DNA from: an uncultured Roseobacter sp. | GTDB taxonomy: Bacteria > Pseudomonadota > Alphaproteobacteria > Rhodobacterales > Rhodobacteraceae | Length of the DNA: 64,000 nucleotides | Assembly (NCBI RefSeq): GCF_947495275.1 | Contig: NZ_CANLYL010000002.1 | Coordinates: 248,001-312,000 of the forward strand | Direction: 5' to 3' | In this document: positions 4,969 to 39,267 of the stretch, piece by piece | How positions within the stretch are numbered: position 1 is the first letter of the stretch | Layout of the letters: the number at the start of each line of letters is the position of its first letter | The notes under the pieces: model-generated | The model's input: only the letters and a program-made list of their open reading frames with translations | Told to the model about the DNA's origin: nothing | Database searches by the model: none | Position numbers and translations under genes: made by a program

Positions 4969-4978
4969 GAGGCCCGCC

Positions 4979-17389: not shown

Positions 17390-17395
17390 AATAAT

Positions 17396-18376: not shown

Positions 18377-18395
18377 CAATAGATTCCCCAAAACA

Positions 18396-18407: not shown

Positions 18408-18506
18408 AAGCAAGATGAAAAATCCTTACCCGAGGATGTGGCGCATGTCAAGCGTTGGGGTTATGCCGCTTTGGTTCTGTCTGTCGCAATGGCAGGTCTA
18501 TATGGC

Positions 18507-18534
18507 TTGACATATGAGGCATAGAATGTATAAC
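18507..18534 (+). promoter_or_regulatory. Sigma70-type promoter for the transketolase/kinase arm
   Basis: TTGACA at 18507-18512 and TATAAC at 18529-18534 with a 16-base spacer, about 30 bases upstream of the transketolase start at 18564. The best consensus-like promoter I saw in the window. Confidence 0.65.
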
Positions 18535-18540
18535 TATATA

Positions 18541-18554
18541 AGAATAAATATGCA
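18541..18554. promoter_or_regulatory. Candidate operator AGAATAAATATGCA
   Basis: Lies just downstream of the -10 box, where a bound repressor would block transcription. It matches the perfect palindrome TGAATAAATATTCA in front of the SorC regulator (21807) at 12 of 14 bases, including the core GAATAAATAT. Shared sequence at two control regions of one locus supports a common regulator. Confidence 0.5.
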
Positions 18555-18563
18555 AGGTTGAAG

Positions 18564-20340: not shown

Positions 20341-20342
20341 AT

Positions 20343-21806: not shown

Positions 21807-21820
21807 TGAATAAATATTCA
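21807..21820. promoter_or_regulatory. Candidate operator TGAATAAATATTCA
   Basis: Perfect inverted repeat TGAATA-AA-TATTCA starting at the kinase stop and ending 28 bases before the SorC regulator ATG. Near-copy of the element at 18541. Suggests the regulator controls its own gene as well as the operon promoter. Confidence 0.5.
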
Positions 21821-21848
21821 TCAAACCTGCCGTTCAAAAAGGTTTCTC

Positions 21849-23127: not shown

Positions 23128-24507
23128 CTAGCCCTTGTAAACCGTAGCGGCATCGCTGAGGTAGTTGTCCCAGGCGAACCAATAGGCAATGTGGCCCGCA
23201 ACTCTCGGCAGGCGGGTGCCGTCAGGACCGACGAGAGCGTCTTCGGTGATGATCCACTCCGATCCGTCCGCAGCTTTCAACCCACCCGATGAAAGCTCGA
23301 ATGTATGATTGCCCCGCTCATAGGCGCGGACGCTACGGCTTTCCGCAGTCCCGATCAGAACTAGGTTTGTACTGTTGATCCCATCGTTAATCAGCCGCTC
23401 TTTGGCGAATGCATCCAGCGGCCAGGCCCGCGCGGCCCCGAACTGGCGGATGGTGAAAACATAGTCTTTCTGGCGATGTTCGCTTTGATCTACGACGGCG
23501 GGAAACATCAGGTCAGGGGAACCGAAGTAATTGGCATAGACAACTCCGGACCCATAGTTGCGCCGATGACCCGTGTCGAGTGACAGAACTTTGCTGCCGG
23601 GATGGGATGTTTTCCACCTGTCCCATGTTGTGATGACAACCGGCCGCTGTTTCAGCTCAATCCCGGAGTTGACCAGCGGCCCCACCACCGGCTTGCCGGT
23701 GAACTGGTTCCAAAGTGAATGGCTTTGGCGATCAAACATCAGCTTGTTGGAACGATAGAGAAATCCCGAAGACCCGAAAACCAGCGGTTTTGATCGACCG
23801 GCAAGCTGCGTTTCAAACAGAATGCCCGATCCGCACAGCGTGCAATAGGCGAGTGCGACAGGCACGCCCCCTATGACTTCGTTGAACATCTCATGCCACC
23901 CCATGATGCGCAGCGGATAGGCTCTGACATCGCCATTGATCGACACGCCGAACACCAGATCCGACCCGCGCAGGTAGGATGCTTCGCTGGCTGAGATCAG
24001 TTGCGGGTTGTCAAGCGAGGGAATGCCATCCTTGCGGACCCCACCCCAGGCGATCTCTTCCAAACGTATCCGCATCTTGTCACGCGCCAGATACTCAGTT
24101 TTCAGAAAGTCGGAAAAATTGGGATCGATTTGCAGCAAAACACGCCGCGTGAACGCGATCTGCGCAGGATGGGGAACAATCTGCGGATTGCGTTCCTGCC
24201 AAAGCATCCAGTCAAACCAACGGGTTCCATGCGACTGGCCAGTGATGTTTTGCAGCACCTCTGCCACTTCGCGCCGTCGCCCTTCCGTAAACCTCAATGC
24301 CCGGATCAGACCCGCCGCCATATCCGGGTTCCCACGGTTTTCGATGAGTTGCAGGGCGGCCTTGTATTCTGATGTTGTTCCAAAAACCTGAGCATCCAGG
24401 GCATCCTGAAGTGCCTTGTCTTCGGAAGATTGCTGTGCCGACACACTTCCCGGTACGAATGCGGACGACAGCGCCAGAGCGGAAAATTGGCGTCGCGATA
24501 GGGTCAT
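23128..24507 (-). CDS. DUF3179-domain protein with Tat signal
   Basis: 459 residues. N-terminus MTLSRRQFSALALSSAFV has the twin-arginine motif SRRQF followed by a hydrophobic stretch and a cleavage-like VSAQ, so export in folded form to the periplasm is expected. The core matches DUF3179: GDVRAYPLRIMGWHEMFNEV, GGVPVALAYCTLCGSGILF (with a C-x-x-C), SGFLYRSNKLMFDRQ, LWNQFTGKPVVGPL, and HPGSKVLSLDTG. The family has no settled biochemical role; the CxxC could bind a metal or be redox-active. No obvious operon partner: neighbours are a convergent regulator and a kinase gene ending 220 bases upstream on the same strand. Confidence 0.88.
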   Translation of the reverse strand: MTLSRRQFSALALSSAFVPGSVSAQQSSEDKALQDALDAQVFGTTSEYKAALQLIENRGNPDMAAGLIRALRFTEGRRREVAEVLQNITGQSHGTRWFDWMLWQERNPQIVPHPAQIAFTRRVLLQIDPNFSDFLKTEYLARDKMRIRLEEIAWGGVRKDGIPSLDNPQLISASEASYLRGSDLVFGVSINGDVRAYPLRIMGWHEMFNEVIGGVPVALAYCTLCGSGILFETQLAGRSKPLVFGSSGFLYRSNKLMFDRQSHSLWNQFTGKPVVGPLVNSGIELKQRPVVITTWDRWKTSHPGSKVLSLDTGHRRNYGSGVVYANYFGSPDLMFPAVVDQSEHRQKDYVFTIRQFGAARAWPLDAFAKERLINDGINSTNLVLIGTAESRSVRAYERGNHTFELSSGGLKAADGSEWIITEDALVGPDGTRLPRVAGHIAYWFAWDNYLSDAATVYKG

Positions 24508-24727: not shown

Positions 24728-26188
24728 TCATGCGTGGAATGGCAGTTCCCGATATCTCTGGTGCCGTTCAAGCAAGTCGTTTCGCCACTCTGGGCGCGGG
24801 GAAACGCTTCTGCTGATTGTTTGTTTGCGTTGCAGAATTTCCGAGGTCTCCAACGGGCTGGCGGCGCATTGCGCAAGTTTCGCGGCACCGATGCAGGCAG
24901 AGATATCGCCATTCACCGGAACCATCATTTCAATGTTCATGAGGCTGGCGATTAATTGCACCCAGAGATCAGACCGTGTGCCGCCCCCCACCGCTACCAT
25001 TTCGTTTATAGGAACACCGGACTGGGTTTGCGCCAGATAAGCGTCGTAAAACTGAAAGGCGACGCCCTCCATGATGGCATAGGCCAAATCAACTTTGTCC
25101 GTGATTGCCGAAATCCCTGATAGAGCCGCTAGCGCGTCAGGGCGATTGTCTGGAGTGCGCACGCCGGTCAGGCTCGGCCGGGCAATTGGGAAGGCGCTCA
25201 TGCCGATATTAGCGATTTTTTGATCCGCAAGCGTGGCCAGTTCAGCAGAAGAGGTGGCGGTCAAATCCGCGATCCAGTCGAGCGATTGCGTGGCGCTCAT
25301 GACCACGCCCATAGACAGAAAGGTGTCCGGAGCCGCGTGTGGAGTGGTCAGTACCGCCTTTTCGGGGTTGGGGCGAAATCGGTCATCCACTGCCGAGAGA
25401 ACACCCGATGTCCCTACGCTAAGTGCAGCGGTTCCGGGGCGCGCGGCACCAACGCCCAGAGCGCCCGCGTAATTGTCGCCGCACCCGGTTGCGACCAGAA
25501 CACGCGATGGCATGCCCCATCGCTCGGACAGCTCGGACTTCAGATAGCCGGCGGCTGCATAGGAGGGTAAAAGACTGGGCAGCTTGCTTCTGTCCCAACC
25601 GGCCGCTTCGATAAGTTCGTCGTCCCAGCTGGCCGTCGCGCAATCCAGCAGCATGGTGCCCGAGGCGTCCGATATATCGCTCGCACGCTCGCCTGTCATC
25701 ATTAGACGAACGTAATCCTTGGGCAGCATCAGGATGTCCGCGCGATCCAGTGCACTTGGCCAGTGTTGCGCCATCCAAAGAAGTTTGGGGGCCGTCAATC
25801 CTGGATCAGGCTGTCCGTTTGTGCGCCAGCCGATGTCAGGAACCCGGTCGAGAAGTATTTGGCACTCCGCCAGCGATCTCTGATCGTTCCACAAAAGGCA
25901 AGGAGCAACCGGTCTGTTTTTTCCGTCAAGCAGCACCGACCCCAACATCTGACCGGACAGCGAAATGCCGACAATACCGGACATCAGTTTCGATTGGTTC
26001 TGGGCCAGTTCGTCGAAAATTTCTGTGGTCAGGTGCCACCATAGATCCGGTTCCTGCTGTGACCAGCCTTGGTGTGGTCGGTCAACTGCGCAAGAGCGCG
26101 ACGCTTGCGCGAGACATTGACCGTCGGCATCAATCAGGGCGATCTTGATGCCGGAGGTGCCGAGATCAATGCCGGCAAAGATGCTCAT
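24728..26188 (-). CDS. FGGY-family kinase (xylulokinase-like)
   Basis: 486 residues. N-terminal phosphate loop AGIDLGTSGIKIALIDADGQ; HQGWSQQEPDLWW; LWNDQRSLAECQIL; PKDYVRLMMTGERASDISDA; the ATP-binding CGDNYAGALGVG and LSVGTSGVLSAVDD; and the C-terminal MVAVGGGTRSDLWVQLIASL. Closest to D-xylulose kinases but the acceptor sugar could be another ketose or an alditol. Its ATG overlaps the regulator stop (ATGA), so it is the last gene of a minus-strand operon: binding protein, permease, permease, regulator, kinase. Confidence 0.9.
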   Translation of the reverse strand: MSIFAGIDLGTSGIKIALIDADGQCLAQASRSCAVDRPHQGWSQQEPDLWWHLTTEIFDELAQNQSKLMSGIVGISLSGQMLGSVLLDGKNRPVAPCLLWNDQRSLAECQILLDRVPDIGWRTNGQPDPGLTAPKLLWMAQHWPSALDRADILMLPKDYVRLMMTGERASDISDASGTMLLDCATASWDDELIEAAGWDRSKLPSLLPSYAAAGYLKSELSERWGMPSRVLVATGCGDNYAGALGVGAARPGTAALSVGTSGVLSAVDDRFRPNPEKAVLTTPHAAPDTFLSMGVVMSATQSLDWIADLTATSSAELATLADQKIANIGMSAFPIARPSLTGVRTPDNRPDALAALSGISAITDKVDLAYAIMEGVAFQFYDAYLAQTQSGVPINEMVAVGGGTRSDLWVQLIASLMNIEMMVPVNGDISACIGAAKLAQCAASPLETSEILQRKQTISRSVSPRPEWRNDLLERHQRYRELPFHA

Positions 26189-27153
26189 TTAGCCTGGTCC
26201 AGTACCGCCAAGGCCGTATGTTCGTCGGTGACCAATGTCCCTACGCACCCCCGTGTCAGCAACGCCCTGATGATCGGCACTTTGTTGAGGCCGCCTGCGG
26301 CAAGGATGACGTTTTCGATCTGATCCAGATCGGGCAACTCCAACCCCAGAACGCGCTCGTTGATCGGGTGATCCACCAAATCCCCATTCGCGCTGAGAAA
26401 GTAACCCATGATGTCACCAACAGCACCACTTGCATGGATGCTCTCAAGGTCGATATCCGGCGGCATCCCGTCTTTGATCAGCAATGATTTCTGCATGTCT
26501 CCCGCTGCAAGGGCGATCCCATCCGCTCGGCGGATTTTCTCGATCGTGGACTGGAAAACGTCCTGCGCGACAAGAATATCCCGGCTTTCCCGCGATCCGG
26601 CGTAGATTGGCGACGTGAAATAACTGTGCTCGGCGTTGCACAGGTCCGCGAGCCGCGTGGTGATTTCGAAACTATTGAGATCGGAGCCCTTGGAAAGCCC
26701 GCCCATGACGGAGATGATCTCAAGGTCAGGGCGGTTGATCGGCTGCATGAAACGCGTCGCCATATTGAGCGTATTGCCCCATGACATACCGAAAAGCCTT
26801 ACATCTCGCTGGCTCAGGTAGCTGGCGAGGTATTGACCGAGCGATGATCCAATCATGGTATGCAGGTCAAACTGCTCACCCGCGATCGGAGCTACCGATG
26901 CCGTTTTGAGACCAAAGGCATTGCAGAGCTTCCACTCAAGCTCCGCGCAGGGCGCGTAAACCGAATTGACCGCGACGCGAACAATGCCGCGGGCCCTTGC
27001 CTCGCGCAGAGATTTGTTGACGCGCAGGCGGGTAAGGCCGAATTTCTCCGCCGCCGCCGCCTGGGTCATGCCTTCCATTTCACACGCCCAGGCCAGCCGA
27101 ACCAAAAGTTGCTCTTCGGCGTCAACAGTATTGGTCTTGGGCGCGCGGGGCAT
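26185..27153 (-). CDS. SorC-family transcriptional regulator
   Basis: 322 residues from ATG 27153, with AGGGAGAGGAA upstream; codons further upstream in this frame lie inside the permease gene. N-terminal helix-turn-helix (VRLAWACEMEGMTQAAAAEK then LTRLRVNKSLREARARGIV). Sugar-binding domain: VRLFGMSWGNTLNMATRFMQ, IISVMGGLSKGSDLNSFEIT, SGAVGDIMGYFLSANGDLV, VILAAGGLNKVPIIRALL. Expected effector: a sugar phosphate, perhaps the product of the kinase encoded next. Best candidate to bind the inverted repeat at 30314-30339. Sits 14 bases after a permease gene. Confidence 0.9.
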   Translation of the reverse strand: MPRAPKTNTVDAEEQLLVRLAWACEMEGMTQAAAAEKFGLTRLRVNKSLREARARGIVRVAVNSVYAPCAELEWKLCNAFGLKTASVAPIAGEQFDLHTMIGSSLGQYLASYLSQRDVRLFGMSWGNTLNMATRFMQPINRPDLEIISVMGGLSKGSDLNSFEITTRLADLCNAEHSYFTSPIYAGSRESRDILVAQDVFQSTIEKIRRADGIALAAGDMQKSLLIKDGMPPDIDLESIHASGAVGDIMGYFLSANGDLVDHPINERVLGLELPDLDQIENVILAAGGLNKVPIIRALLTRGCVGTLVTDEHTALAVLDQAK

Positions 27154-27167
27154 GAATTTTCCTCTCC

Positions 27168-27986
27168 CTACTTCACGGCACCCATGGTCAGGCCGCGAAC
27201 CAACTGCTTGGAGGCAAGCAACGCAAAGATCAACACCGGGATCACGATCAATGTCGATGTGGCCATGATCTTTCCGTAAGGCAGGTTGTATCCTTCCATG
27301 AAAGACACTGCCATTGCAGGCGCCGTTTTTGCGGTTGTACGCGTCAGGACCAGCCCGAACATCAGTTCGTTCCATGAGAAAATAAAAGAAAATATCCCAG
27401 ATACGGCGACACCCGGCATCGCCAGCGGCAGGCAGATTTTCCGCAGGATGATCCATTGCGAGGCGCCTTCAATCCGCGCCGCTTCATCGAGATCATAGGG
27501 TATGCCGCGGAACTGATCGGTGCAGATCCAGATGACAATCGGCAAATTGAAAGTCAGGTAAATCAGGATCAGCGTAATGTGCCTGTCGAGCATCCCCAGC
27601 TGGCGCACGATCAGGAAGAACGGCAGGGCCAGTACAATGGGGGATACCATGCGATTGGTGATAAACCAGAACCACAGGTCCTTTTTGCCGCGAAACTCGA
27701 AGCGGGCAAGGGCGAAGGCTGCGGGCACGCCCAGCAGGATCGCCAGCGCTGTGGTGCTGATTGCGATGATCAGGGAATTCATCAGCGTGCGCAGCACACC
27801 ATCGTCGAAAAGCGCTTCGCGGTAGTTTGCCAAGGTCGGTTCAAACAACCAGACCGGCGGGCTCTCCAACGCCACCACCTGGGTTTTCAAGGATGTGGTG
27901 ACCATCCAGTAGAATGGGAAGACACAGACCAGCAGAATAGCCAGAAGCAACAGGCTTTGTATCCAGATAGAGCGGGACGAGGTCAT
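27168..27986 (-). CDS. Sugar ABC importer permease 2 (MalG/UgpE-like)
   Basis: 272 residues, six hydrophobic segments. Starts MTSSRSIWIQSLLLLAILLV. The EAA loop is present as YDLDEAARIEGASQWIILRK, which contacts the ATPase. Ends LVRGLTMGAVK, typical of CUT1-family second permeases. Three bases after permease 1, with AAGGAAG upstream of the ATG. Confidence 0.94.
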   Translation of the reverse strand: MTSSRSIWIQSLLLLAILLVCVFPFYWMVTTSLKTQVVALESPPVWLFEPTLANYREALFDDGVLRTLMNSLIIAISTTALAILLGVPAAFALARFEFRGKKDLWFWFITNRMVSPIVLALPFFLIVRQLGMLDRHITLILIYLTFNLPIVIWICTDQFRGIPYDLDEAARIEGASQWIILRKICLPLAMPGVAVSGIFSFIFSWNELMFGLVLTRTTAKTAPAMAVSFMEGYNLPYGKIMATSTLIVIPVLIFALLASKQLVRGLTMGAVK

Positions 27987-27989
27987 GGC

Positions 27990-28865
27990 TCAGACTTCCT
28001 TGTAGAAGACGCGAATGTAGATTTGGCTCAAAATGATCGTGATGATCAGCAAAATGATCGCCTGAGCAGAGGCTAACCCTTGATCAAACGCCCGAAACCC
28101 GACCCGCTGAATCATCAATGATATCAGCTCGGTGGAGGATCCGGGCCCGCCGCGTGTGAGCGTGAAAACCATATCAAAGAGTTTCAGGGTATCCGCGGTG
28201 CGCAGGATCAGGACCGCCACCAACCCGGGCATGAGAAAGGGTAACTGGACGTAGCGCAGAACAGTCCACCAACTTTTGGTTTCGAGGCGCGCGGCTTCTT
28301 CGATCTCATCGGGGACCATCGTAAGGCCCGCCAGCAAAACAAGCGCTACAAAGGGGGTCCACTGCCAGACATCCCAGAAAATGATCATGGTGAATGCGTT
28401 TGTCGGATCGCCGATCCAATTGATGTTGCCACCGCCAAATGGGGACAGAAACTGATTTACCACACCGAATTTTTGATTGAACATGACCTGGCCGAGAAGG
28501 CCCACGACCGCGTAGGTCGTCGCCATTGGCAGCACAAGAGACAGCCGTGCCAGCGTTTTCAATAATGTCAGGCCGGGCTTGTGCAAGATCAGCGCAATCC
28601 CCAAGCCAAGCGCCAGTTGCAAGGGCAGAGCGATGCTTAGCAGGGTGAACGTGCGCCCCATCGCTTCCCAGAAAACGGAATCTGTCAGTACATCCCAGTA
28701 GTTTTCCAGCCCGATGAATTTGACGCGTTTGAGCTTGGTCAGATTATAGAAATGCAGACTGGTCCAGGCCGCGTAGAGCAAAGGTACAATGCCGATTGCG
28801 GCCAATGCGATGACGGAGGGGCCAATAAAGGCGAAGATCGTTTTTCTGGGAACTTTGCCGGGCAT
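27990..28865 (-). CDS. Sugar ABC importer permease 1 (MalF/UgpA-like)
   Basis: 291 residues, six hydrophobic segments. Contains FIGLENYWDVLTDSVFWEAM (typical CUT1 periplasmic loop) and the EAA loop VPDEIEEAARLETKSWWTVL. Forms the membrane channel with permease 2. Follows the binding-protein gene after a 68-base gap that holds a strong hairpin. Confidence 0.94.
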   Translation of the reverse strand: MPGKVPRKTIFAFIGPSVIALAAIGIVPLLYAAWTSLHFYNLTKLKRVKFIGLENYWDVLTDSVFWEAMGRTFTLLSIALPLQLALGLGIALILHKPGLTLLKTLARLSLVLPMATTYAVVGLLGQVMFNQKFGVVNQFLSPFGGGNINWIGDPTNAFTMIIFWDVWQWTPFVALVLLAGLTMVPDEIEEAARLETKSWWTVLRYVQLPFLMPGLVAVLILRTADTLKLFDMVFTLTRGGPGSSTELISLMIQRVGFRAFDQGLASAQAIILLIITIILSQIYIRVFYKEV

Positions 28866-28889
28866 TTCGATGACCTTTTACGGGGCAGA

Positions 28890-28907
28890 GGGGCGCCGAA
28901 GCGCCCC
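28890..28907 (-). other. UUCG-capped hairpin between binding-protein and permease genes
   Basis: On the minus strand: GGGGCGC-TTCG-GCGCCCC, a 7-base G/C stem with the very stable C(UUCG)G loop. It lies just after the binding-protein stop and before the permease start, with no T-run. Such hairpins commonly stabilise the upstream message so that the binding protein is made in excess of the membrane subunits. Confidence 0.65.
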
Positions 28908-28933
28908 CGCCGTCAATGTTAGGCTGGCGGTGG

Positions 28934-30283
28934 CTATTGCGCGAGTGGTTTGTCACCGCTGTAGTATCCGGCGTCCTCAAGCACTTCTTCCATGCGCGCA
29001 CCCAGCTCGGTTACACCCTCCTCAATGCTGACTTCTTCCAGCATGATCTTGGTGCCCCATTCCTGCACGATCTCGGTGATTTCCGGCCACTCGGCAAAGC
29101 GCGGACGGAATTCCGGGACACCATCCTGCCAGCTTTCGACCAGGGCGGGGATGAACTTGTAGGTGTCAGCCAATGCGGGATCGGCATAGGCCGATTGTCG
29201 TGCGGGCACCCCACCGCGTTCCAGGTATTCACCTGCGTTCGCCTTGGATGTGGCCCATTGGATAAACAGGTAGGCTGCCGCTTGCTCCGCATCATCGGCC
29301 TGCGCGGCGACGGCCATGGAAAACCCGCCTAGAGCAGGCTTCCGTCCCGCTGGTCCTGTGGGTTCCGGTGCGATTTCCACACAATCAGCAATTTTCGAGG
29401 TCTCCGGGCTGACAACAGTGGAATAGAAAGCCGACCACTCGGTGATCATGGCCACATCACCCTGGCTGAACGCGTTCACGGTTTCCGCGTGATCATAGGC
29501 GACGATGCCATCGGGCATATATTGCATCAGGTCCTGCCGGAATTGCAGACCCGCAAGGCTTTCTTCCGACATCAGGTTCGATTTGAATTCGTCATTCAGG
29601 AACGATCCGCCGAAGGGCCAGAGCATGCGCGCAAAACTATCCGCAGATTGTGTCTCGTTCCGTTTGGATTGCAAGGCGTAGGCGTATTTGCCGTCCTTGG
29701 TGAGCGCGGGGCCGTAGACGTTTTTCAAGTCATCCCAGGTTTTTGGCGGGCCATCAAATCCGGCTTCTTCCAGCATGCAGCTATTGTAGAACAGCAATCC
29801 GGAATAGTTGTCGACGGGCAAGCCGTAGATTGTGCCGTTCCAGCCGCCAAAGGCGTTCAGGACCAACGGGAAGAAGTCATCCATGTCCAGATCGGGGTCC
29901 GCCAGATCGGGATTTGAGGTGAACTTGTCCAGCGGGACGATCCAGTCGTTCTCGGCGAAATTACCGATCCAGACCAGGTCGATCAGCGCGACATCAAGAT
30001 CGCCGCCTGCGACGAAATCCCGAACCTGTTCACCCAGCGCGTTTTCGTAAGGATGCTTGATAATATTGACTTTTATCCCGGTTGCTTCCTCGAATTCAGG
30101 CAGCATCGCTTCGATCGCTTCATATCCCGGGCGTAACAAGAACACGACATCGACAGTGGTGCCGGCATAAGGTTCAGCGGCTTTCTCAAGGCTCCATGCG
30201 TGACCATCGGCCAGCACATTTGATGCACCAAAACACAGGCCTGCGGCCATTGCGGTGGTGCCCAACATTTTTTTGAATTTCAT
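28934..30283 (-). CDS. Extracellular solute-binding protein, family 1 (CUT1 sugar/polyol type)
   Basis: 449 residues from ATG 30283, which has GGGAGGAAC upstream. Signal peptide MKFKKMLGTTAMAAGLCFGA ending near VLADG. Mature protein shows VVFLLRPGYEAIEAMLPEFE, FVAGGDLDVALIDLVWIGNF, YGLPVDNYSGLLFYNSCMLE, and GGFSMAVAAQADDAEQAAAY. It resembles binding proteins for alditols and oligosaccharides in Rhizobiales and Rhodobacterales. First gene of the minus arm; divergent from the ATPase gene, with which it shares a control region. Confidence 0.92.
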   Translation of the reverse strand: MKFKKMLGTTAMAAGLCFGASNVLADGHAWSLEKAAEPYAGTTVDVVFLLRPGYEAIEAMLPEFEEATGIKVNIIKHPYENALGEQVRDFVAGGDLDVALIDLVWIGNFAENDWIVPLDKFTSNPDLADPDLDMDDFFPLVLNAFGGWNGTIYGLPVDNYSGLLFYNSCMLEEAGFDGPPKTWDDLKNVYGPALTKDGKYAYALQSKRNETQSADSFARMLWPFGGSFLNDEFKSNLMSEESLAGLQFRQDLMQYMPDGIVAYDHAETVNAFSQGDVAMITEWSAFYSTVVSPETSKIADCVEIAPEPTGPAGRKPALGGFSMAVAAQADDAEQAAAYLFIQWATSKANAGEYLERGGVPARQSAYADPALADTYKFIPALVESWQDGVPEFRPRFAEWPEITEIVQEWGTKIMLEEVSIEEGVTELGARMEEVLEDAGYYSGDKPLAQ

Positions 30284-30313
30284 GTGTTCCTCCCATCGGA
30301 AACTGTTGACATC

Positions 30314-30339
30314 CATTTGTATCGGATCACATACAAATG
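30314..30339. promoter_or_regulatory. Candidate operator: 9-base inverted repeat
   Basis: CATTTGTAT at 30314-30322 and ATACAAATG at 30331-30339 are perfect inverted copies 8 bases apart. They lie in the divergent control region between the binding protein (start 30283) and the ATPase (start 30422). A TTGACA at 30306-30311 reads toward the ATPase, so the repeat would cover that promoter. The SorC regulator at 26185 is the likely ligand. Confidence 0.55.
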
Positions 30340-30421
30340 TAATGAATGGCGCAGATGTCAACATGAAAATGTCGGCAGGTCATCGGTAAAGGCGTGCTGC
30401 GACCACAAGGGAGTCAGATCT

Positions 30422-31468
30422 TTGGCGACAGTTGATCTAAGCGGAATAAGCAAGTTTTACGGGGCAATGCAGGCCCTTTTTGATGTGTCGCTCAGCGTGC
30501 CGGATGGGGCCTTCGTGGTTTTTGTCGGGCCGTCCGGTTGTGGCAAGTCAACGTTGCTTCGCACGATCGCCGGTCTCGAATCAGTTGACGGCGGGACTGT
30601 TGAGATCGGCGGCAAGGATGTGACGCAGCTTGAACCGGTTGATCGCGATGTCTCGATGGTTTTTCAATCATATGCCCTTTATCCGCACATGAGCGTCCGC
30701 GCGAACATGGAGTTCGGGATGAAAGTTGGAGGCGTCGGGGCAGATGAACGCAACGCCCGGGTCGAAGAGGCCGCCAAGATACTGCAGCTCAGTGAACTGC
30801 TGGACCGCAAGCCAGGTCAGCTATCGGGTGGACAGCGGCAGCGCGTCGCAATTGGTCGTTCAATTGTAAAGAAGCCCAAGGTTTTTCTGTTTGACGAACC
30901 GCTTTCCAATCTGGATGCAAAGCTGCGTGTTCAGATGCGGGTAGAGCTCGAAGCGCTGCATGATCAACTCAACGCCACAATGATCTACGTGACACACGAC
31001 CAGGTTGAAGCCATGACCATGGCGGATCAGATTGTTGTGCTTAACGCTGGTCGAATTGAACAGGTCGGCAGTCCGATGGACCTCTATCACCGGCCTGCTT
31101 CGGAATTCGTGGCCGGGTTTATCGGGTCGCCGGCAATGAACATTTTTGACACCACGTCCATTTTTGCCGGATCGCTTTCGCGGCAGGAGCAGACAGCTCG
31201 TCTTGGCATCCGCCCGGAACATATTGTTCTGGGAAAGGTGGGGCAGGGCGACGTCGATCTGAATGTCGCGGTAAAAGAGCAATTGGGTGGCGAGAGTTAC
31301 CTCTACCTGCAAGGTGATGATGGCGAACGCCTTGTCGTTAAAACCGATGGAGAAGACGCGACAAAGGCCGGGCAAAGCGTCAGTATCTCGATGCCCGCTC
31401 ACCGGGTGCATCAGTTCGATGCCAACGGGGTGACCTTGTCGAATAACGCCGGAGGCGCGCCGGTATGA
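30422..31468 (+). CDS. Sugar ABC importer ATPase (UgpC/MalK type)
   Basis: 348 residues from a TTG at 30422 with GGGAG 8 bases upstream; the frame is open from 30284, but those codons do not look like protein and cover the control region. Walker [11 protein letters not shown]-loop [14 protein letters not shown], signature [15 protein letters not shown], Walker [14 protein letters not shown]-loop [14 protein letters not shown], and a C-terminal regulatory (TOBE) domain with [11 protein letters not shown]. Energises the importer encoded on the minus arm. Its stop overlaps the next start as ATGA. Confidence 0.93.
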
Positions 31469-32826
31469 GCCACTGGAAGGCGCAATTTGACAACCTCATC
31501 GCGCCCGCGGTCGCCAAATCCGCCGTGACAAAGCATCTGATTATTGACCGCGGGGCGATCACGCATGTTGGTGAAGTTGCCGCATCGGTAACATCGTCGC
31601 AAAGAGCGATCCTTTTCGCCGATCGCGCGGGCTTTGATGCGGCGGGGTATGCCACACGGGATCAACTGGCCTCCGCCGGGTTTGCCGTTGATCAGTTGAT
31701 CCTGAACGATGATCCTTTGCCCAAGGCTTCGGTTGAAGAAGCCGAACCTTTCATCGAGACGCTCAAATCTGATCCCTTGCTGCTGCCGGTCTCGGTGGGA
31801 TCTGGTGTGATAAATGATCTGGTCAAATTCGCCTCCTACGAGACAAATCGGCAATACGTAAGTGTTGCGACGGCGGCGTCGATGGATGGCTATACCAGTG
31901 CCGGTGCCCCGCTAGCCCGGGAGGGGTTCAAAGTGACGATTCCCACCCGCGCGCCAATGGCCCTGATTGCTGATCTTGATGTGATCGCCAAGGCACCCGC
32001 AGAGATGACCGGTTGGGGCTACGGCGATCTGGCGGGTAAATCTCCGGCGGGTGGGGACTGGTTGCTGGCAGAACTTGTTGGCGCAGAGGTAAGAGATGCA
32101 ACCGCCTGGCCATTGGTTCAGGACCATTTGCGCGGCTGGCTTTGCGATCCGCAGGCATTGGCTCACGGGGATCGCGATGCGACGGCGCGGCTTTTCATTG
32201 GGCTCACGGCTGTTGGCTTCGCAATGGAGTTTCATGGCTCATCGCGTCCGGCCTCCGGCGCGGATCATCAGATCGCCCATATGTGGGAGATGGAAGATCT
32301 CAGCTTGGAGGGGCGCAAGGTCAGTCACGGTGCCGCTGTTGCTGTCGGCTGTGTTGTCACGTTGGCCCTTTATGACTGGTTGCTCGGGCAGGATTTATCA
32401 CAGATCACTGGCCCTGTTCCCGATTTGAATGCGGCTTTGGATGAACTTAGACGGGTCATTCCGGACGCACGCATCGCAGATCGGGCCGTTCTGCAAACGC
32501 AGGAAAAATGGATTGATCCCGCGCTGCACGCGGACAGGCTGAAACGCATTTGTACTTATTGGCAGGACACGCGTGGAATCATCCGCCAACAATTGTTTCG
32601 CACAGGTGAAATGGTTGCGATGCTCAAAATGGCCGGGGCACCGGCCTTTGCAAAAGATATTGGGGTCAGTTCAGTCCATCTGGAGCGAACGATCAGAGCC
32701 GCAGCTTACATACGCAGCAGGTATACGATCCTCGATTTCCTCAAGGAAACGGGTCTTTTTGAGCGCGCACTCTCCGAGGTTCTGCCAAAGCTTGATCAGC
32801 TCGCCGCTCATGGAGGCAAAATATGA
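31465..32826 (+). CDS. sn-Glycerol-1-phosphate dehydrogenase-like protein (AraM-like)
   Basis: 453 residues. Belongs to the DHQS-like/iron-alcohol-dehydrogenase fold, glycerol-1-phosphate dehydrogenase branch. NAD site: VSVGSGVINDLVKFAS and ATAASMDGYTS; metal ligands are probably the aspartate in GWGYGDLAGKSPAGGDW and the histidines in SRPASGADHQIAHMWE and VSHGAAVAVG. Characterised relatives (archaeal EgsA, Bacillus AraM) interconvert glycerol-1-phosphate and DHAP. In an operon with kinase, isomerase and epimerase a larger polyol phosphate may be the substrate. The C-terminus (~390-453) is longer than in the archaeal enzymes. Cytoplasmic. Confidence 0.85.
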   Translation: MSHWKAQFDNLIAPAVAKSAVTKHLIIDRGAITHVGEVAASVTSSQRAILFADRAGFDAAGYATRDQLASAGFAVDQLILNDDPLPKASVEEAEPFIETLKSDPLLLPVSVGSGVINDLVKFASYETNRQYVSVATAASMDGYTSAGAPLAREGFKVTIPTRAPMALIADLDVIAKAPAEMTGWGYGDLAGKSPAGGDWLLAELVGAEVRDATAWPLVQDHLRGWLCDPQALAHGDRDATARLFIGLTAVGFAMEFHGSSRPASGADHQIAHMWEMEDLSLEGRKVSHGAAVAVGCVVTLALYDWLLGQDLSQITGPVPDLNAALDELRRVIPDARIADRAVLQTQEKWIDPALHADRLKRICTYWQDTRGIIRQQLFRTGEMVAMLKMAGAPAFAKDIGVSSVHLERTIRAAAYIRSRYTILDFLKETGLFERALSEVLPKLDQLAAHGGKI

Positions 32827-33380
32827 ATCTTTCAGAACTCGCCCACAGGGCAAATGAGGAAGTCGGTGATGTCTTGCAAAACGCCTTGCCGGATCAGGTG
32901 ATTGCTATGGCGTCCCCGATCTTGAGCGCCAACCACATCGCGCTATACGGAGTGGGCCGCGAGGGGTTGATGATCAAATCTCTGGCCATGCGGCTTTTTC
33001 ACCTTGGCCTTGACGCGCATATGATCGGGGACATGACCACACCACACATCGGGGAAGGTGATCTGCTGATCGTGAGTGCCGGTCCGGGGTATTTTTCCAC
33101 CGTCGCGGGGTTGATCAAACAGGCCAAGATCGCTGGGGCGCAGGTATTATGTGTGACGGCTGAACAGGATGGGATTGTCCCGAAATCCGCAGATCACGTT
33201 GTTCTGCTGTCGGCCCAGACAATGGCCAATGATCAAGGCGGTGACGGTTCAATATTGCCGATGGGGTCGCTTTTTGAGGCGGTGATGTTCATGTTCTTCG
33301 AAATGCTGATCCTGCATTTGCGGGATGCAAAAGGAGTTTCCGCAGAAGACATGCGCGCCTTTCACACGAATATGGAGTAA
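32823..33380 (+). CDS. SIS-domain sugar isomerase, 6-phospho-3-hexuloisomerase-like
   Basis: 185 residues, the usual size for phosphohexuloisomerase (HxlB). One SIS domain: ALYGVGREGLMIKSLAMRLF, HLGLDAHMIGDMTTPHIGEG, LLIVSAGPGYFSTVAGLIKQ, GAQVLCVTAEQDG. The ending MRAFHTNME resembles the RHANLE tail of HxlB proteins. HxlB converts D-arabino-3-hexulose-6-phosphate to fructose-6-phosphate. No hexulose-phosphate synthase gene (formaldehyde fixation) is nearby, so a different route to a 3-ketose phosphate is implied. Start overlaps the upstream stop (ATGA). Confidence 0.82.
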   Translation: MNLSELAHRANEEVGDVLQNALPDQVIAMASPILSANHIALYGVGREGLMIKSLAMRLFHLGLDAHMIGDMTTPHIGEGDLLIVSAGPGYFSTVAGLIKQAKIAGAQVLCVTAEQDGIVPKSADHVVLLSAQTMANDQGGDGSILPMGSLFEAVMFMFFEMLILHLRDAKGVSAEDMRAFHTNME

Positions 33381-33383
33381 ACA

Positions 33384-34154
33384 ATGACGGCCTGGCAGGA
33401 ACGCTTTGCGATCAAAGATCGCGTTGCCTTGGTGACGGGGGCATCCTCTGGTATAGGCGCGGAAATCTGTGAGGTCTTTGCCGACGCTGGCGCACGCGTC
33501 ATCGCCACCGGGCGGAATGAGGACAAGCTTGCTGCTCTGCAATCTGATATTGCGGCAACGGGGGGAAACTGCCGGATCATCCCTGCGGATATCGGCGAGA
33601 TCGATGGCGCAGAGGGCGTGGTTTCCCGCGCTCTGGCAATGGCGGGGACAGTTGATATTCTGGTCAACAGTGCTGGCACTGCGATTGTGGGCCCGGCGAC
33701 AGAGTTTTCGCTGGAGGACTGGGACCGGACAATGGCGCTGAACCTGCGCGCACCGTTTATCCTGGCCCGAGGACTGGCGCCGAAGATGATCGCGCAAAAA
33801 CGCGGTAAGATCATTAATATTTCATCGCAAACCGGTGTGATTGCGCTGCCTGATCATGCAGCCTATGCCGCCTCCAAAGGCGGACTAAATGCGCTGACCA
33901 AAGCTTTGATGACCGAGTTCGCCCCGCATAACGTCCAGGTGAACGCTATCTGCCCAACTGTCGTCATGACGCAGATGGGACGCAAGCTTTGGAGTCCACC
34001 CGAGAAATCCGGCCCTTTTCTGGCGGCAACGCCGCTGGGTCGCTTCGGGGAGCCGGTCGAGATTGCGGATATGGCCCTTTATCTCGCGTCGCCCGCATCT
34101 GATCTGGTGAACGGCGCACTGATGATGATTGAAGGGGGCTATTCAAGCGTATGA
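33384..34154 (+). CDS. SDR-family dehydrogenase
   Basis: 256 residues. VTGASSGIGAEICEVFADAG (nucleotide site), NSAGTAIVGPATEFS, catalytic serine in INISSQTGVIALPDH, YAASK, NAICPTVVMTQMG, and a C-terminus DLVNGALMMIEGGYSS. Resembles gluconate-5-dehydrogenase and polyol dehydrogenases. Three bases after the SIS gene; its stop overlaps the next start. Probably interconverts an imported alditol or sugar acid and its keto form. Confidence 0.85.
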   Translation: MTAWQERFAIKDRVALVTGASSGIGAEICEVFADAGARVIATGRNEDKLAALQSDIAATGGNCRIIPADIGEIDGAEGVVSRALAMAGTVDILVNSAGTAIVGPATEFSLEDWDRTMALNLRAPFILARGLAPKMIAQKRGKIINISSQTGVIALPDHAAYAASKGGLNALTKALMTEFAPHNVQVNAICPTVVMTQMGRKLWSPPEKSGPFLAATPLGRFGEPVEIADMALYLASPASDLVNGALMMIEGGYSSV

Positions 34155-35002
34155 TGCGAGGATTTGGGGTCCATACCAGCATGTGGACGATGACATGGGA
34201 TCGCGAGGGCGCGGAACGTGCAGTGGCCGCTGCCGTAGCAGACGGTATGGATTTCATCGAAATTGCTTTGCTCGACCCGCCGTCTGCGGATGCTGATCAC
34301 AGCCGGTCTTTGTTGGAAGAGGCTGGTCTTTCGGCGGTATGTTCGCTGGGATTGCCAGAGGCCGTCTGGGCGTCGCACAATCCCGAGGGTGCGGTTGAAT
34401 TTTTGAAAGTTGCGATAGAGAAGACGGCCGCGATGGGTGGCCTTGCGCTCAGCGGCGTGACCTATGGCGGCATCGGTGAACGCTCAGGCCTGCCGCCGAC
34501 GCAACAGGAGATCGACAACGTTGCAAAAGCGCTGCAGATGGCCGCCGGATATGCCAAAAAAGCTGGTATTCTATTTGGCATCGAACCCGTGAACCGATAC
34601 GAGTCCCATCTGATCAATACTGCGGCACAGGGTGTCGCGATGATCGAAAAAGTGGGATCGGACAACATGTTTTTGCACCTGGATACCTATCATATGAATA
34701 TCGAGGAAAAGGGTGCGGGTAACGGGATTTTGGATGGGCGTGATCATCTGCGCTACATTCATCTGTCGGAAAGCGACCGGGGGACGCCGGGCATGGGCAC
34801 CTGCGACTGGGACGAGATTTTCGCAACACTTGCCGCGGTGCAATTCAGCGGTGGACTGGCGATGGAAAGCTTCATCAACATGCCGCCCGAGATCGCGCAT
34901 GGTCTTTCCGTCTGGCGACCGGTCGCCAACAATCATCGCGAAGTCATGGATCAGGGGCTGCCTTTCCTGCGTAACAAAGCCAAGCAGTATCGGCTCATTT
35001 AA
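34151..35002 (+). CDS. Sugar isomerase/epimerase TIM barrel (ketose 3-epimerase-like)
   Basis: 283 residues, the size of tagatose/psicose 3-epimerases. Metal and catalytic residues of that family are recognisable: the glutamate in LFGIEPVNRYESHLINTA, the aspartate/histidine in FLHLDTYHMNIEE, the histidine in RYIHLSESDRGTPGMGTCDW, and the glutamate in LAMESFINM. Free ketose 3-epimerases use a manganese-bound cis-enediolate mechanism. In this operon it could adjust ketose stereochemistry before phosphorylation. A hydroxypyruvate-isomerase-like role is less likely given the sequence details. Confidence 0.83.
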   Translation: MMRGFGVHTSMWTMTWDREGAERAVAAAVADGMDFIEIALLDPPSADADHSRSLLEEAGLSAVCSLGLPEAVWASHNPEGAVEFLKVAIEKTAAMGGLALSGVTYGGIGERSGLPPTQQEIDNVAKALQMAAGYAKKAGILFGIEPVNRYESHLINTAAQGVAMIEKVGSDNMFLHLDTYHMNIEEKGAGNGILDGRDHLRYIHLSESDRGTPGMGTCDWDEIFATLAAVQFSGGLAMESFINMPPEIAHGLSVWRPVANNHREVMDQGLPFLRNKAKQYRLI

Positions 35003-35005
35003 CCC

Positions 35006-35911
35006 ATGTCCTACACATCCCTTATGACGACCGATGCTGCGTTTTCACGGTATGAGGAAATCCGCAGGCGTCTTCCCCAGACGACATTTCCGTCCCGGAG
35101 CCAAAGTCGTGCATCCCTTGCACAAGTGGCTGACGATGTGGATGCATTTGTGCTGGACGCTTTTGGTGTCCTGAATGTTGGCCAAACCCCGATCCCAGGC
35201 GCTGTCGAACGAATGGCGGAGCTGCGCAAAATGGGTAAAAAACTGGTCGTGCTGACCAACGCGGCCAGTGATACGCGCGTGGCAGCCCTGAAGAAATATC
35301 GTAAATTGGGGTTTGATTTCACGGCTGATGAGGTCGTCGCCAGCCGCGATGTGTGCGCCGCACGGCTCGGTGATCACCTGCCGCTGGGACGATGGGGCGC
35401 GCTGTGTACCGATGTCGATACCTTCGTGGATCTTGATACAGACATTGTCCGCTGGACCGCAGCCGAGCCTTGGGATGTGGACGGGTTTCTGTTTCTGTCC
35501 AGCGCGGCCCTCGATGCGGCGACCATGACCGCCCTGAAGGCTGATTTACACAGGCGCATGCGGCCGCTCCTGGTCGCCAATCCCGATATCGTGGCCCCGC
35601 GTGAAACGGGTTTGAGCTGTGAACCCGGATATTTTGCCCATTTGCTGGCAGATGAGACCGGCGTTGAACCAGTGTTTTTTGGCAAACCCTTTGGCAATGC
35701 ATTTGATGATGTCAAACGGCGGTTGCAGGGGATCGCGCCTGAACGCATTGCGATGGTTGGCGACACCCTGCATACTGACATCCTCGGTGGCCGTGCCGCT
35801 GGTTTCAAAACCGTCCTGATCGAAAGGTTCGGATTGTTTTCTGGTACGGATGTTGGTCCCTATATTCGTCTGTCCGGGATTGTTCCTGACTACATCTGTC
35901 CCGTCACTTAG
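35006..35911 (+). CDS. HAD-superfamily class IIA hydrolase with altered motif I
   Basis: 301 residues. Cap type and order fit HAD subclass IIA (NagD/AraL/glycerol-phosphate phosphatase relatives): motif I FVLDAFGVLNVGQTPIPGA, motif II VVLTNAASDTR, motif III lysine in FFGKPFGNAF, motif IV IAMVGDTLHTDILGGRAAGF. Motif I reads D-A-F-G, so the usual general-acid aspartate two residues after the nucleophile is phenylalanine. Last gene of the operon, 3 bases after the epimerase. May remove phosphate from a dead-end sugar phosphate, as proposed for AraL, but the motif I change leaves its chemistry open. No ribosome-binding site is obvious. Confidence 0.78.
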   Translation: MSYTSLMTTDAAFSRYEEIRRRLPQTTFPSRSQSRASLAQVADDVDAFVLDAFGVLNVGQTPIPGAVERMAELRKMGKKLVVLTNAASDTRVAALKKYRKLGFDFTADEVVASRDVCAARLGDHLPLGRWGALCTDVDTFVDLDTDIVRWTAAEPWDVDGFLFLSSAALDAATMTALKADLHRRMRPLLVANPDIVAPRETGLSCEPGYFAHLLADETGVEPVFFGKPFGNAFDDVKRRLQGIAPERIAMVGDTLHTDILGGRAAGFKTVLIERFGLFSGTDVGPYIRLSGIVPDYICPVT

Positions 35912-36098: not shown

Positions 36099-37466
36099 CT
36101 ATTCGATAAAGGTTCTCGCGATCCGGTCACTGAGTGGCTGGGTCAGATAACTGATCGCAGTACGCTCGCCCGTATTGACAAAAAGGTCTGCGGGCATTCC
36201 AGGTAGAAGTTCGAGATCGGCAATCGCTTTGGGCTGATCTGCGTTCAGTTTTACGCGGGCGATGAAATAGCTCTCACCGGTTCTGGCGTCTTCCAGGCTA
36301 TCTGCCGAGATGTCGAAAATCTGCCCCGTTGCTTCTGGGATATCGCCTTGATCGAATGCAGAGAGACGCACGCGGGTGCTCTGGCCTACTTTAAGTTTTT
36401 CGATATCCGCCGTGTTGATCCGCGCTTCAACGATCAGTGGGTTGTCAGCTGGAACGATATCCAGGATGGCTTCGCCGGGGCGCACAACGCCCCCCGCAGT
36501 AAAGAGGCTCATATTGACGACACGGCCATCTGCTGGCGCGGCAATGTATATCCGCTTGAGGCGTTCTGTGGCACCGGCATAGCGGGGTGCCACCACGGAG
36601 ATTTGGGCATCGACGGCGGCCAGTTCCGTTGCGATGGCTTCATCTCGCAGTTTTTGCTGGCTCAGATGCGCGAGTTTCAGCTCCCCGATCTGGTTTTCGG
36701 CCTGAGCCTGCTGGGTCGCCAAGGAGGCGTCAATGCCACGCAGTCGTTCAATTTCGATCCGGCGCGCGGTGACCCGCGTTGCCGCGACGAGGCCCTTGTC
36801 AAAAAGAGTTTCGAGATTTCCCAGTTCGGTTTTGGTGATCTCCAGCTGACGCGCGTTGGAACCGCGCTGCGCTTGAATTCCGGCAACTTGGTCACGCAGG
36901 CTTTCGATACGTTGATCAAGGATGTCGCTTTCCGTCTGCCGCGCCCGCGCCTCGGTGGCAAAAAGCTGTTTCTGGGTGAGATATGCGGAGTGCCAATACT
37001 CTTCCTTTGCGACCCGAGAGGCTTCAGCCACATCTTTCTGCGAGAACACACTGGCGCCATTGATCTGTGCCATAAGGCGGGCGCGTCTTACGGTAAGCTC
37101 TCCAAGCTGGCTGCCAAAAACATCGAGATCGACGTCAAGCTCAGCGCTGTCCAGCTCGACAAGCGTCTGACCTGCCTGCACAAAATCACCGTCTGATACG
37201 AGTATGCTGCGCACGATACCGCCATCCAGATGCTCGACTGTCTTGCGATTTCCCTCGACCACAAGCGAAGCCGGAGCCACAACCGCGCCGTCCAATTCAG
37301 AGGAAAACGCCCAGTAAAAAGATCCACCAAGAAAGATGATAAGCATCGCAATTCCAGCCAGAACAAAGCCTCTGATGCGTGGTTCCGCCGCGGGGCCGCT
37401 GATGCGGTTATAGTCTTCGAGGCGCAAGACCTCTTGAGCCCGGGGTGCCGAAATAAGTGCAGTCAT
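36099..37466 (-). CDS. Type I secretion membrane-fusion protein (HlyD/PrtE family)
   Basis: 455 residues. One N-terminal transmembrane segment (FVLAGIAMLIIFLGGSFYWA), then a lipoyl-like part (VVEGNRKTVEHLDGGIVRSI), a long coiled coil at about 120-280, and a beta-barrel region (IYIAAPADGRVVNMSLFTAG, GEAILDIVPADNPLIVEARI). Ends with LLPGMPADLFVNTGERTAIS, the HlyD signature region. Links the inner-membrane ABC exporter to an outer-membrane TolC channel, which is not in the window. ATG overlaps the exporter stop. Confidence 0.93.
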   Translation of the reverse strand: MTALISAPRAQEVLRLEDYNRISGPAAEPRIRGFVLAGIAMLIIFLGGSFYWAFSSELDGAVVAPASLVVEGNRKTVEHLDGGIVRSILVSDGDFVQAGQTLVELDSAELDVDLDVFGSQLGELTVRRARLMAQINGASVFSQKDVAEASRVAKEEYWHSAYLTQKQLFATEARARQTESDILDQRIESLRDQVAGIQAQRGSNARQLEITKTELGNLETLFDKGLVAATRVTARRIEIERLRGIDASLATQQAQAENQIGELKLAHLSQQKLRDEAIATELAAVDAQISVVAPRYAGATERLKRIYIAAPADGRVVNMSLFTAGGVVRPGEAILDIVPADNPLIVEARINTADIEKLKVGQSTRVRLSAFDQGDIPEATGQIFDISADSLEDARTGESYFIARVKLNADQPKAIADLELLPGMPADLFVNTGERTAISYLTQPLSDRIARTFIE

Positions 37467-39208
37467 TGTGCTGTTCCTTCCATCCGGAGTTGCTGTTTCA
37501 CGCGCTTGACCTGTTTTGGTCGTTGCCCATCCAGAACGTTTTGTTGGGTCGGTCGCAGGACATCGTCCTTATCGCCAAACTGGGTTTGCGTGCCGTTGCT
37601 GAGTATGAGCACCTTGTTCACGGCTTGCAGCGTGCTGGGGCGATGGGTCATGACGATTACGATGGCCCCGCGTTCACGCGCGCTCTGAATGGCCTTGCGC
37701 AGGGCCTGTTCGCCGGTTGAGTCCAGATCGGAGTTGGGCTCGTCAAGCACAAGGATGAAAGGGTCATTGTACAGTGCGCGCGCCAGAGCGATCCTTTGAC
37801 GCTGACCGCCTGACAGGAAATATCCGTTGCCGATCTTGGTCTCATATCCATCCGGCAGCGTGCTGATCAATTCATGCACGTCGGCAGACATCGCGGCCTG
37901 TAATACCTGCGCATCATCAATGGTGGTGGAGAAACGCGCGATGTTTTCCCTGATCGTGCCATCAAACAGATCCACATCCTGAGGCAGATACCCGACCAAT
38001 CGGCCAAGATCTTCGGTATCCCATTTTGACATGGCCGTGCCATCCAACGTGATGGCGCCGCGTTGGGGCATCCAGATGCCTGCCAGCATCTTGGCCAGCG
38101 TTGATTTGCCCGATCCACTTGGGCCAATGACGGCCACAACGTCTCCGGCGTCCAGCGCGAAGTTGATGCCGCCGATTGTTGCGTTTTGGGCACGCGGAGG
38201 TCCTGCCTGCGCAATGCTTGCTGCCAGGGAGATTTCCGGGCGAGGCAACTGCAGCCGTGGCGGCGCGGAGGGATAGTCGGCGGCGAGAGATTTTAGTTTG
38301 TGATAAGAGCCACGCGCTGCCAGAAAGCTGCGCCACTGGCCGATGAGCTGATCAATGGGGGCAAGGGCCCGAGCCAGCACGATGGTCGCGGCAATCATGA
38401 CCCCGGCGGTGGTTTCACCGCTGATGGCTAGTGCGGCGCCAAGACCCAGAATGGCAGATTGCAGGCCCATGCGGATGGTTTTCGAGATCACCGAAAATGT
38501 GGCGATACGGTCGCTTGCTTTGGTTTTAAAGATTTGAGTCTGTGCCTGAAGAGCGCTCCAGCGACGCGCGAGGTCACTTTTCATCCCCATGGCGTGGGCC
38601 AGTTCGGCGTTGCGTTCGCTGGTTTGAAAAAGCGCATCTGACCGGCCTCGGGCAAAGGCGGCATCCTGCATTGGCGTTTGCGCTCTGGCGTTGTTGATCA
38701 GCGCCAGAAGCGTCAGAACCACGGCCCCGGAGACACCGAGCAGGCCCAAGAGCGGATGCAGAACGTAGAGCAGTGCAAGGTATATCGGAATCCAGGGGGC
38801 GTCGAAGAAAGCCGTAAGTGTCGTTCCGGAAATGAAATCCCGAAATCCGTTCACGTCATCGACGGGGTTTTCACCGGCGACAGAATGCCCTTGAACCCGG
38901 CGGCGCATCGCTGCGGCAAGAATGGGCTCACCAATCTCTAACTCAAAGCGTGCACCAAGCCGGTTAAGGATACGCATCCGCATCAGGTCCAGACATCCTA
39001 TCACCACGAACACGCCTCCCAGAAGTAGTGTCAGGGCAATCAGCGTCTCGATGTTCTGGCTCGTTAGCACCCGGTCGTAGACCTGAAGCATGTAAAGCGG
39101 CCCTGCGAGCATGAGAAGGTTCAGAAAGAGGCTGAAGACAGCCACGGCGGCAAATCCGCTGCGCAGCGCGCCCCAGGCTTTTTTGACGGAGTTGGATTTC
39201 TGGAACAT
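37463..39208 (-). CDS. Type I secretion ABC exporter (PrtD family)
   Basis: 581 residues: six membrane segments in the first ~330 residues (FAAVAVFSLFLNLLMLAGPL, YMLQVYDRVLTSQNIETL) and an ATPase domain: Walker A IGPSGSGKSTLAKMLAG, LPQDVDLFDGTIRENIARF, signature [15 protein letters not shown], Walker B FILVLDEPNSDLDS, H-loop MTHRPS. No C39 peptidase domain, as expected for RTX exporters. Sixty bases downstream of a large RTX/CHRD protein gene on the same strand, the likely cargo. Confidence 0.95.
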   Translation of the reverse strand: MFQKSNSVKKAWGALRSGFAAVAVFSLFLNLLMLAGPLYMLQVYDRVLTSQNIETLIALTLLLGGVFVVIGCLDLMRMRILNRLGARFELEIGEPILAAAMRRRVQGHSVAGENPVDDVNGFRDFISGTTLTAFFDAPWIPIYLALLYVLHPLLGLLGVSGAVVLTLLALINNARAQTPMQDAAFARGRSDALFQTSERNAELAHAMGMKSDLARRWSALQAQTQIFKTKASDRIATFSVISKTIRMGLQSAILGLGAALAISGETTAGVMIAATIVLARALAPIDQLIGQWRSFLAARGSYHKLKSLAADYPSAPPRLQLPRPEISLAASIAQAGPPRAQNATIGGINFALDAGDVVAVIGPSGSGKSTLAKMLAGIWMPQRGAITLDGTAMSKWDTEDLGRLVGYLPQDVDLFDGTIRENIARFSTTIDDAQVLQAAMSADVHELISTLPDGYETKIGNGYFLSGGQRQRIALARALYNDPFILVLDEPNSDLDSTGEQALRKAIQSARERGAIVIVMTHRPSTLQAVNKVLILSNGTQTQFGDKDDVLRPTQQNVLDGQRPKQVKRVKQQLRMEGTAQ

Positions 39209-39267
39209 GGTGTGGACCCTTTTTGTTGGCAGGGACGGCGAGGCAACCCGCCGTCCCGTTTGTCGGC

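Follow-up and report, generated by a model that had tools for sequence, protein, structure and literature searches.

A rare, conserved Roseobacter locus with an AraM-family dehydrogenase and an HxlB-like SIS protein is a probable variant polyol operon, most likely for pentitols

We analysed a divergent block of eleven genes at positions 24728–35911 of a 64,000-nucleotide stretch of DNA from an uncultured Roseobacter sp. (contig NZ_CANLYL010000002.1; the whole stretch is hereafter called the window), and found that it is a real, conserved and rare variant of a polyol operon. The minus-strand arm carries, in order, an FGGY kinase of the XylB family (24728–26188), a SorC-family regulator (26185–27153; PF04198, 174 bits; 94% to its counterpart in locus L005), permeases 2 (27168–27986) and 1 (27990–28865) of a CUT1 transporter, and the solute-binding protein of that transporter (28934–30283). 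The plus-strand arm carries its ATPase (30422–31468; UgpC-type subfamily model, 458.8 bits against a cut-off of 432), a dehydrogenase of the AraM/sn-glycerol-1-phosphate dehydrogenase (G1PDH) family (31465–32826), an HxlB-like sugar isomerase (SIS) protein (32823–33380), a GolD/DthD-like short-chain dehydrogenase (SDR; 33384–34154), an accessory ketose 3-epimerase (34151–35002) and a haloacid dehalogenase-like (HAD) protein of class IIA (35006–35911). An earlier sequence-only reading had named this gene set; all eleven genes were found, and family scans of nine of the proteins bore out their names, several of them below curated NCBIfam cut-offs. Both permeases were named instead from annotated orthologues (‘carbohydrate ABC transporter permease’ for permease 2 and ‘sugar ABC transporter permease’ for permease 1).

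Three starts were set inside longer open reading frames (ORFs). The regulator ORF extends to 27456, and 27153 is the most likely start, as set from a 322-residue orthologue in L005; the binding-protein ORF reaches 30364, with M28 at 30283 preferred; and the ATPase ORF runs from 30284, with a refined TTG start at 30422 preceded by AAGGGAG. The tight spacing described earlier was confirmed, with 4-base overlaps at 26185/26188, 31465/31468, 32823/32826 and 34151/34154 and 3-base gaps at 33380/33384 and 35002/35006. Since the block is kept in other species, its arrangement by chance is ruled out.

Scanning genome contigs with the AraM-like protein yielded 19 loci, 17 of them with neighbours in common with the window; two distant Verrucomicrobial loci with AraM homologues (L022, L023) had none, and the one L023 neighbour scanned, a major facilitator superfamily (MFS) transporter, was of no help for function. 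Few genomes of the family have the AraM-like protein (4 of 149), and the binding protein (E at most 1e-110) was found in 16 of 394 family genomes and 2 of 385 class genomes, own genome counted. Searches with the binding protein and the SIS protein, in which up to 20 kb around each match was inspected, sorted loci with a related transporter into type A, with an AraM-like dehydrogenase, and type B, with a medium-chain (MDR) alcohol dehydrogenase. Among 46 non-redundant loci with a related binding protein (47 entered, L010 being equal to L076), AraM was present in 28, MDR in 17 and both in none, and one (L070) was cut off by the end of its contig. This 28:17 ratio is biased by loci fetched with AraM itself, and the bias-free figure, from the transporter-only draw of 16 of 394 genomes, is 11 AraM, 4 MDR and 1 cut off. 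The count left out L001–L004 and L036–L064 (duplicate places or too short), L022–L027 (no related binding protein in their maps), and L034, L085–L090, L106, L107 and L110–L115, in which the transporter is missing; L015, L066, L070 and L078 end early, and gene absences there carry little weight.

Type B loci carry the related transporter and mostly SorC and SIS, with the MDR gene replacing AraM, either directly before SIS (in Ruegeria-like loci) or elsewhere in the block, and both types occur within the window's genus (L081, L082). The SIS gene is present in 25 of 28 type A and 14 of 17 type B loci, and the window-type SDR in 25/28 and 9/17, with a different SDR in 13/17 type B loci. Other genes follow the type: HAD-IIA (20/28 AraM loci, 0/17 MDR loci) and the window-type kinase (24/28, 0/17) accompany AraM, and HAD-IA (7/17 MDR loci, 0/28 AraM loci) accompanies MDR. 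A ketose 3-epimerase lay within the available stretches of 6/28 type A and 4/17 type B loci. No close MDR was found elsewhere in seven type A genomes (best 29–35% identity), against which two type B controls gave 82–85%. On the binding-protein tree the type changes 4 times, each change forced by starred branches, against a mean of 14 after shuffling; the SorC tree has 3 changes (2 forced), and the SIS tree 3 for AraM and 6 for MDR (1 forced). Related transporters therefore accompany either enzyme set, and each set may have been transferred as a unit. The alternation of AraM and MDR is read directly from sequence and synteny, and it suggests that the two enzymes could be functionally interchangeable.

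The closest comparisons are the type B loci of Dinoroseobacter shibae (L067; stretches of 3000 and 1000 bases from two contigs of its genome are identical throughout to D. shibae plasmids) and of Ruegeria sp. THAF33 (L028), whose binding proteins (81–82%) and permeases (87–89%) resemble those of the window and which share SorC, SIS and SDR orthologues with it. They differ in having MDR for AraM and HAD-IA (DFDGV) for HAD-IIA, and in an extra SDR and a pentulose kinase (TIGR01315; in L028 654 bits against a cut-off of 409), with XylB above cut-off in L028 as well. The gene order of L067 (ATPase, solute-binding protein, two permeases, SorC, MDR) would fit the numbering of Dshi_0546-0549, assigned as the xylitol transporter in GapMind and the Fitness Browser, and of Dshi_0551, assigned there as the xylitol dehydrogenase. 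The solved structure nearest to the window's binding protein, PDB 5iai, is presumably a ribitol complex, and a structure model of the binding protein itself (pLDDT 39.5) was too poor for ligand inference. D. shibae is reported in PMC3789786 to use just 19 of 190 carbon sources, ribitol, D-arabitol, xylitol and myo-inositol being four of them. The transporter's kin thus point to pentitols over hexitols, the latter being less likely but conceivable substrates.

The SIS protein is nearest to HxlB among named families and narrowly misses the cut-off (TIGR03127, 156.1 of 160 bits). It resembles HxlB in length, in its GxGR, PMGS-x-x-E152 and C-terminal H181-x-N motifs and in H60, and it retains, as does every SIS row, H60, E152 and H181, which we take to be the catalytic-type residues of HxlB. 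It differs in lacking an HxlA partner, earlier found missing from the locus and without a match above cut-off in the whole genome (best 22.3 bits, cut-off 200), and in having E, A, P and F in place of HxlB S47, S86, S88 and T91. All four replacements are found in 25/25 AraM-type and 14/14 MDR-type proteins (39/39, with L096 left out). In nine more SIS genes, from other contexts, the four positions read E; A or V; P; and L, I or F. The pattern S, S, S, T is seen in all HxlB controls (5/5; four with HxlA adjoining, plus 1m3s), in an HxlB-like protein of Pantoea whose annotated neighbours do not include HxlA, and in the distant SIS protein of L115. Phosphate is contacted by Ser135, Ser179, Ser181 and Thr184 in NanR (PMC12713135) and by Ser54, Ser119 and Ser121 in NagS (PMC12680351); the shared pattern, one Ser in a first loop and S-x-S(-x-x-T) in a second, has the spacing of SIS positions 86, 88 and 91, the match being one of motif rather than superposition. 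A branch of support 99 separates the locus group from HxlB in a tree made by a quick method, with long branches flagged. Because the residues at the phosphate positions are replaced, we infer that this group lacks the customary mode of phosphate binding; judged by its residues, the protein is not a 6-phospho-3-hexuloisomerase, and it probably acts on an unphosphorylated sugar.

Genes of the same SIS subfamily were also found away from the related transporter. In L085–L090 the SIS gene adjoins an FGGY kinase, in most cases with a different CUT1 transporter; L085 additionally has an M42 peptidase, a BtpA-family protein and an aldo/keto reductase. In L034 and L107 it sits between the binding protein and ATPase of CUT2 transporters; the L107 block (7841–13890) ends with a ketose 3-epimerase (74% to that of the window), and in the L034 block (7771–13206) a 43-residue match to this epimerase follows as a remnant. 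No FGGY kinase or polyol dehydrogenase was recognised in these two blocks, the L107 ORFs having been scanned in part. In L106 it is found with SorC, a CUT2 transporter, a putative TIM barrel without an NCBIfam match and a DhaK-type kinase. Each of these contexts would suit a free-sugar isomerase acting ahead of a kinase or epimerase, and L107 would be a poor match for an enzyme that shifts a keto group on a phosphate.

The AraM-like protein belongs to PF13685 (116.5 bits) and to the G1PDH fold, where it is closest to AraM, and it has the G1PDH metal ligands; it falls far below the G1PDH equivalog of NCBIfam (154.9 of 413 bits). Its identity to Bacillus subtilis AraM, a Ni2+ glycerol-1-phosphate (G1P) dehydrogenase (PDB 9h4x), is about 30% over 290 residues. 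The two have K156 in common, and the SRPASG motif of AraM and archaeal G1PDHs is kept, but Trp184 replaces Ala beside a metal ligand in all 20 rows of the AraM-like alignment, and the window gene lies in a polyol-type operon rather than an arabinose operon. Background on AraM and metal sites is given in PMC4244643, PMC5059525 and PMC5125639, and a precedent is described in PMC9700705, where a protein annotated as G1PDH was found to be a glycolaldehyde reductase without notable G1P activity. In rhizobial AraM-like proteins (L025 and L026, each at 7950–9305) the Asp of S-x-DG is Asn and the SRP motif is gone; their genes adjoin a SorC-like regulator, an FGGY kinase and HAD-IIB, and the proteins perhaps have yet another function.

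The SDR scores below the GolD/DthD cut-off (249 bits against 286), and the epimerase is near the solved D-tagatose/D-allulose 3-epimerase 7dz2 (460 bits over 282 residues) and under the NCBIfam D-psicose 3-epimerase cut-off (146.9 of 300 bits). The HAD-IIA protein (99.4 bits, cut-off 100.15) has DAFGVL as motif I, without the second Asp of DxD, which presumably has a role in HAD phosphatases. Its form D-[AS]-F-G-V-L recurs in 21/21 rows from 20 organisms (L010 and L076 being the same organism), and the HAD-IA of MDR loci has DFDGV in 7/7 rows, which include the reference twice; L008 has a different protein at 4753–5541, read as a putative HAD. The missing Asp weakens the proposal of an AraL-like phosphatase, and a plain phosphatase role is doubtful.

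Together, these results lead us to propose, with a probability of about 0.6, that the locus is an operon for the use of sugar alcohols, the likeliest substrates being one or more of the pentitols xylitol, ribitol and arabitol, with an AraM-family dehydrogenase replacing MDR; the pentitol assignment draws on the related-transporter MDR locus of the pentitol user D. shibae. The CUT1 system would import the polyol, and the SorC protein would sense it or a product. The AraM-family enzyme, whose gene occupies the place of the MDR alcohol dehydrogenase in sister loci, would with the SDR oxidise the polyol to ketoses with NAD(P)+; SIS, plus the ketose 3-epimerase where present, would rearrange the free sugar; and the ketose so formed would be phosphorylated by the FGGY kinase and passed to the pentose phosphate pathway. 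The earlier description of a carbohydrate locus for import, oxidation and phosphorylation with an unusual enzyme set is thus supported; we found no paper on an identical locus in the open-licence literature, and the main texts of PMC9007349 and PMC10130141 have nothing on it under polyol terms.

A more specific, joint version of this proposal is put forward only tentatively, as the less probable case. Here the SIS protein would be the founder of a free-sugar isomerase subfamily acting beside an AraM-family polyol dehydrogenase, with sugars staying free until the last step; the subfamily would have given up phosphate binding, would convert an aldose to a ketose or a 3-ketose to a 2-ketose, and would work upstream of FGGY kinases in several import operons. 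The free-sugar chemistry that it shares with the main proposal is suggested because the four phosphate positions are lost in 39/39 proteins and because L107 and L034 pair SIS with a free-ketose epimerase or its remnant, with no FGGY kinase recognised. To our knowledge such a reaction would be new for the SIS fold.

Several observations weigh against the pentitol proposal or its details. The kinase and the HAD protein switch with locus type, so types A and B may make different intermediates, and, with only 2 changes forced on the SorC tree, the enzymes and transporter may have recombined. A SIS gene of the window kind was found neither in L008 nor in the outlying MDR loci L031–L033; the SIS proteins of L110, L111 and L113 read E, S, P, T, retaining S86 and T91, and the distant one of L114 reads M, C, V, T. 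Since the MDR proteins of L028 and L030 reach no NCBIfam cut-off, their substrate is not set by family, and since SRPASG is kept, a phosphorylated substrate for the AraM-like enzyme is conceivable. SIS, SDR and HAD are not needed for a plain conversion of xylitol to xylulose-5-phosphate. Finally, although the kinase exceeds the XylB cut-off (TIGR01312, 420 bits against 380), 24/24 type A kinases have Leu where XylB has, after SG[QH]M, a His that we take to be a substrate contact of the E. coli enzyme, and a second XylB, at 52% to that of the type B locus L028, is encoded separately in the window's own genome. The His is kept in two type B XylBs with a readable motif (L080, L083); type B kinases and FGGY2 proteins with overlong ORFs, whose motif is unreadable, were not counted. 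The Leu and the second XylB weaken a plain xylulokinase assignment, and the ketose may be other than D-xylulose.

Some of the same features would suit a phosphate-first route, in which the polyol is first phosphorylated by the kinase and then oxidised by the AraM-like enzyme at the carbon adjoining the phosphate, an end resembling that of sn-G1P, after which SIS shifts the keto group. SRPASG, K156 and the closeness to the AraM fold argue for it, as do AraM genes adjoining FGGY kinases and RpiB in Rubrobacter and the adjoining FGGY and SIS genes of L085–L090. The route resembles rhizobial erythritol use, the operon for which likewise has an FGGY kinase, a SorC regulator, a polyol transporter and a possible keto-shifting step, but has the GlpD-like EryB where the window has AraM and the TIM-barrel EryC where it has SIS, and the window locus is without RpiB. 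We consider it unlikely, as the phosphate-holding side chains are gone from SIS, a free-ketose epimerase is present in 10 of 45 typed loci and W184 stands for Ala beside the metal ligand in the 20 AraM-like rows.

Still less probable is the route favoured by the sequence-only reading, C3 oxidation of a hexulose phosphate by the AraM-like enzyme followed by HxlB-type isomerisation to fructose-6-phosphate. The closeness of SIS to HxlB and the retained H60, E152 and H181 would be consistent with it; yet the four altered phosphate positions, the lack of HxlA above cut-off in the genome and the transporter's kin in a pentitol user stand against it, and AraM alternates with MDR, which needs no 3-keto-phosphate step. 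SIS as an HxlB of the ribulose monophosphate (RuMP) pathway was ruled out by the phosphate residues, the missed cut-off and the same lack of HxlA. The least probable reading takes the AraM-like protein as a true G1P dehydrogenase, handling G1P from archaeal lipids, making an ether lipid or serving as a redox valve with the HAD phosphatase. Family membership and metal ligands are as expected for such an enzyme, AraM and HAD genes are neighbours in Rubrobacter and Rhizobium, and marine Phaeobacter sp. MED193 grows on G1P (PMC12718374), but the alternation with MDR dehydrogenases, the HAD protein's missing Asp and the binding protein's poor score for the UgpB model (26 bits, cut-off 411) argue against it. 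Its lipid form was rejected, PcrB having no match in the genome.

If the pentitol proposal is true, bacterial proteins annotated as ‘sn-glycerol-1-phosphate dehydrogenase’ can in fact be polyol dehydrogenases, with consequences for arguments about archaeal-type lipids in bacteria. The SIS fold, known as a phosphosugar-binding domain, may then include a free-sugar branch. Sister loci with either dehydrogenase would offer ready-made comparisons for assigning both.

Between the divergent arms lies a perfect inverted repeat, CATTTGTAT-N8-ATACAAATG (30314–30339), which was the sole match in the 64 kb with up to 3 mismatches allowed (0.01 expected). It is also present in L005 and L065, was not seen in most other loci examined, and is a candidate operator for the SorC protein.

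A second sugar locus lies next door (13196–22826). Its minus-strand part has two SDRs along with a CUT2 transporter of the ribose type, and beyond these come a transketolase split into a pair of genes, an FGGY kinase resembling GlpK (464 of 498 bits) and another SorC-like regulator. Between the two loci, a 459-residue putative secreted protein (23128–24507) is 81% conserved, in the same place, in Roseobacter insulae. On the far side (36099–42465, minus strand), ORF translations indicate an HlyD-like/ABC pair adjoining a 1065-residue repeat protein.

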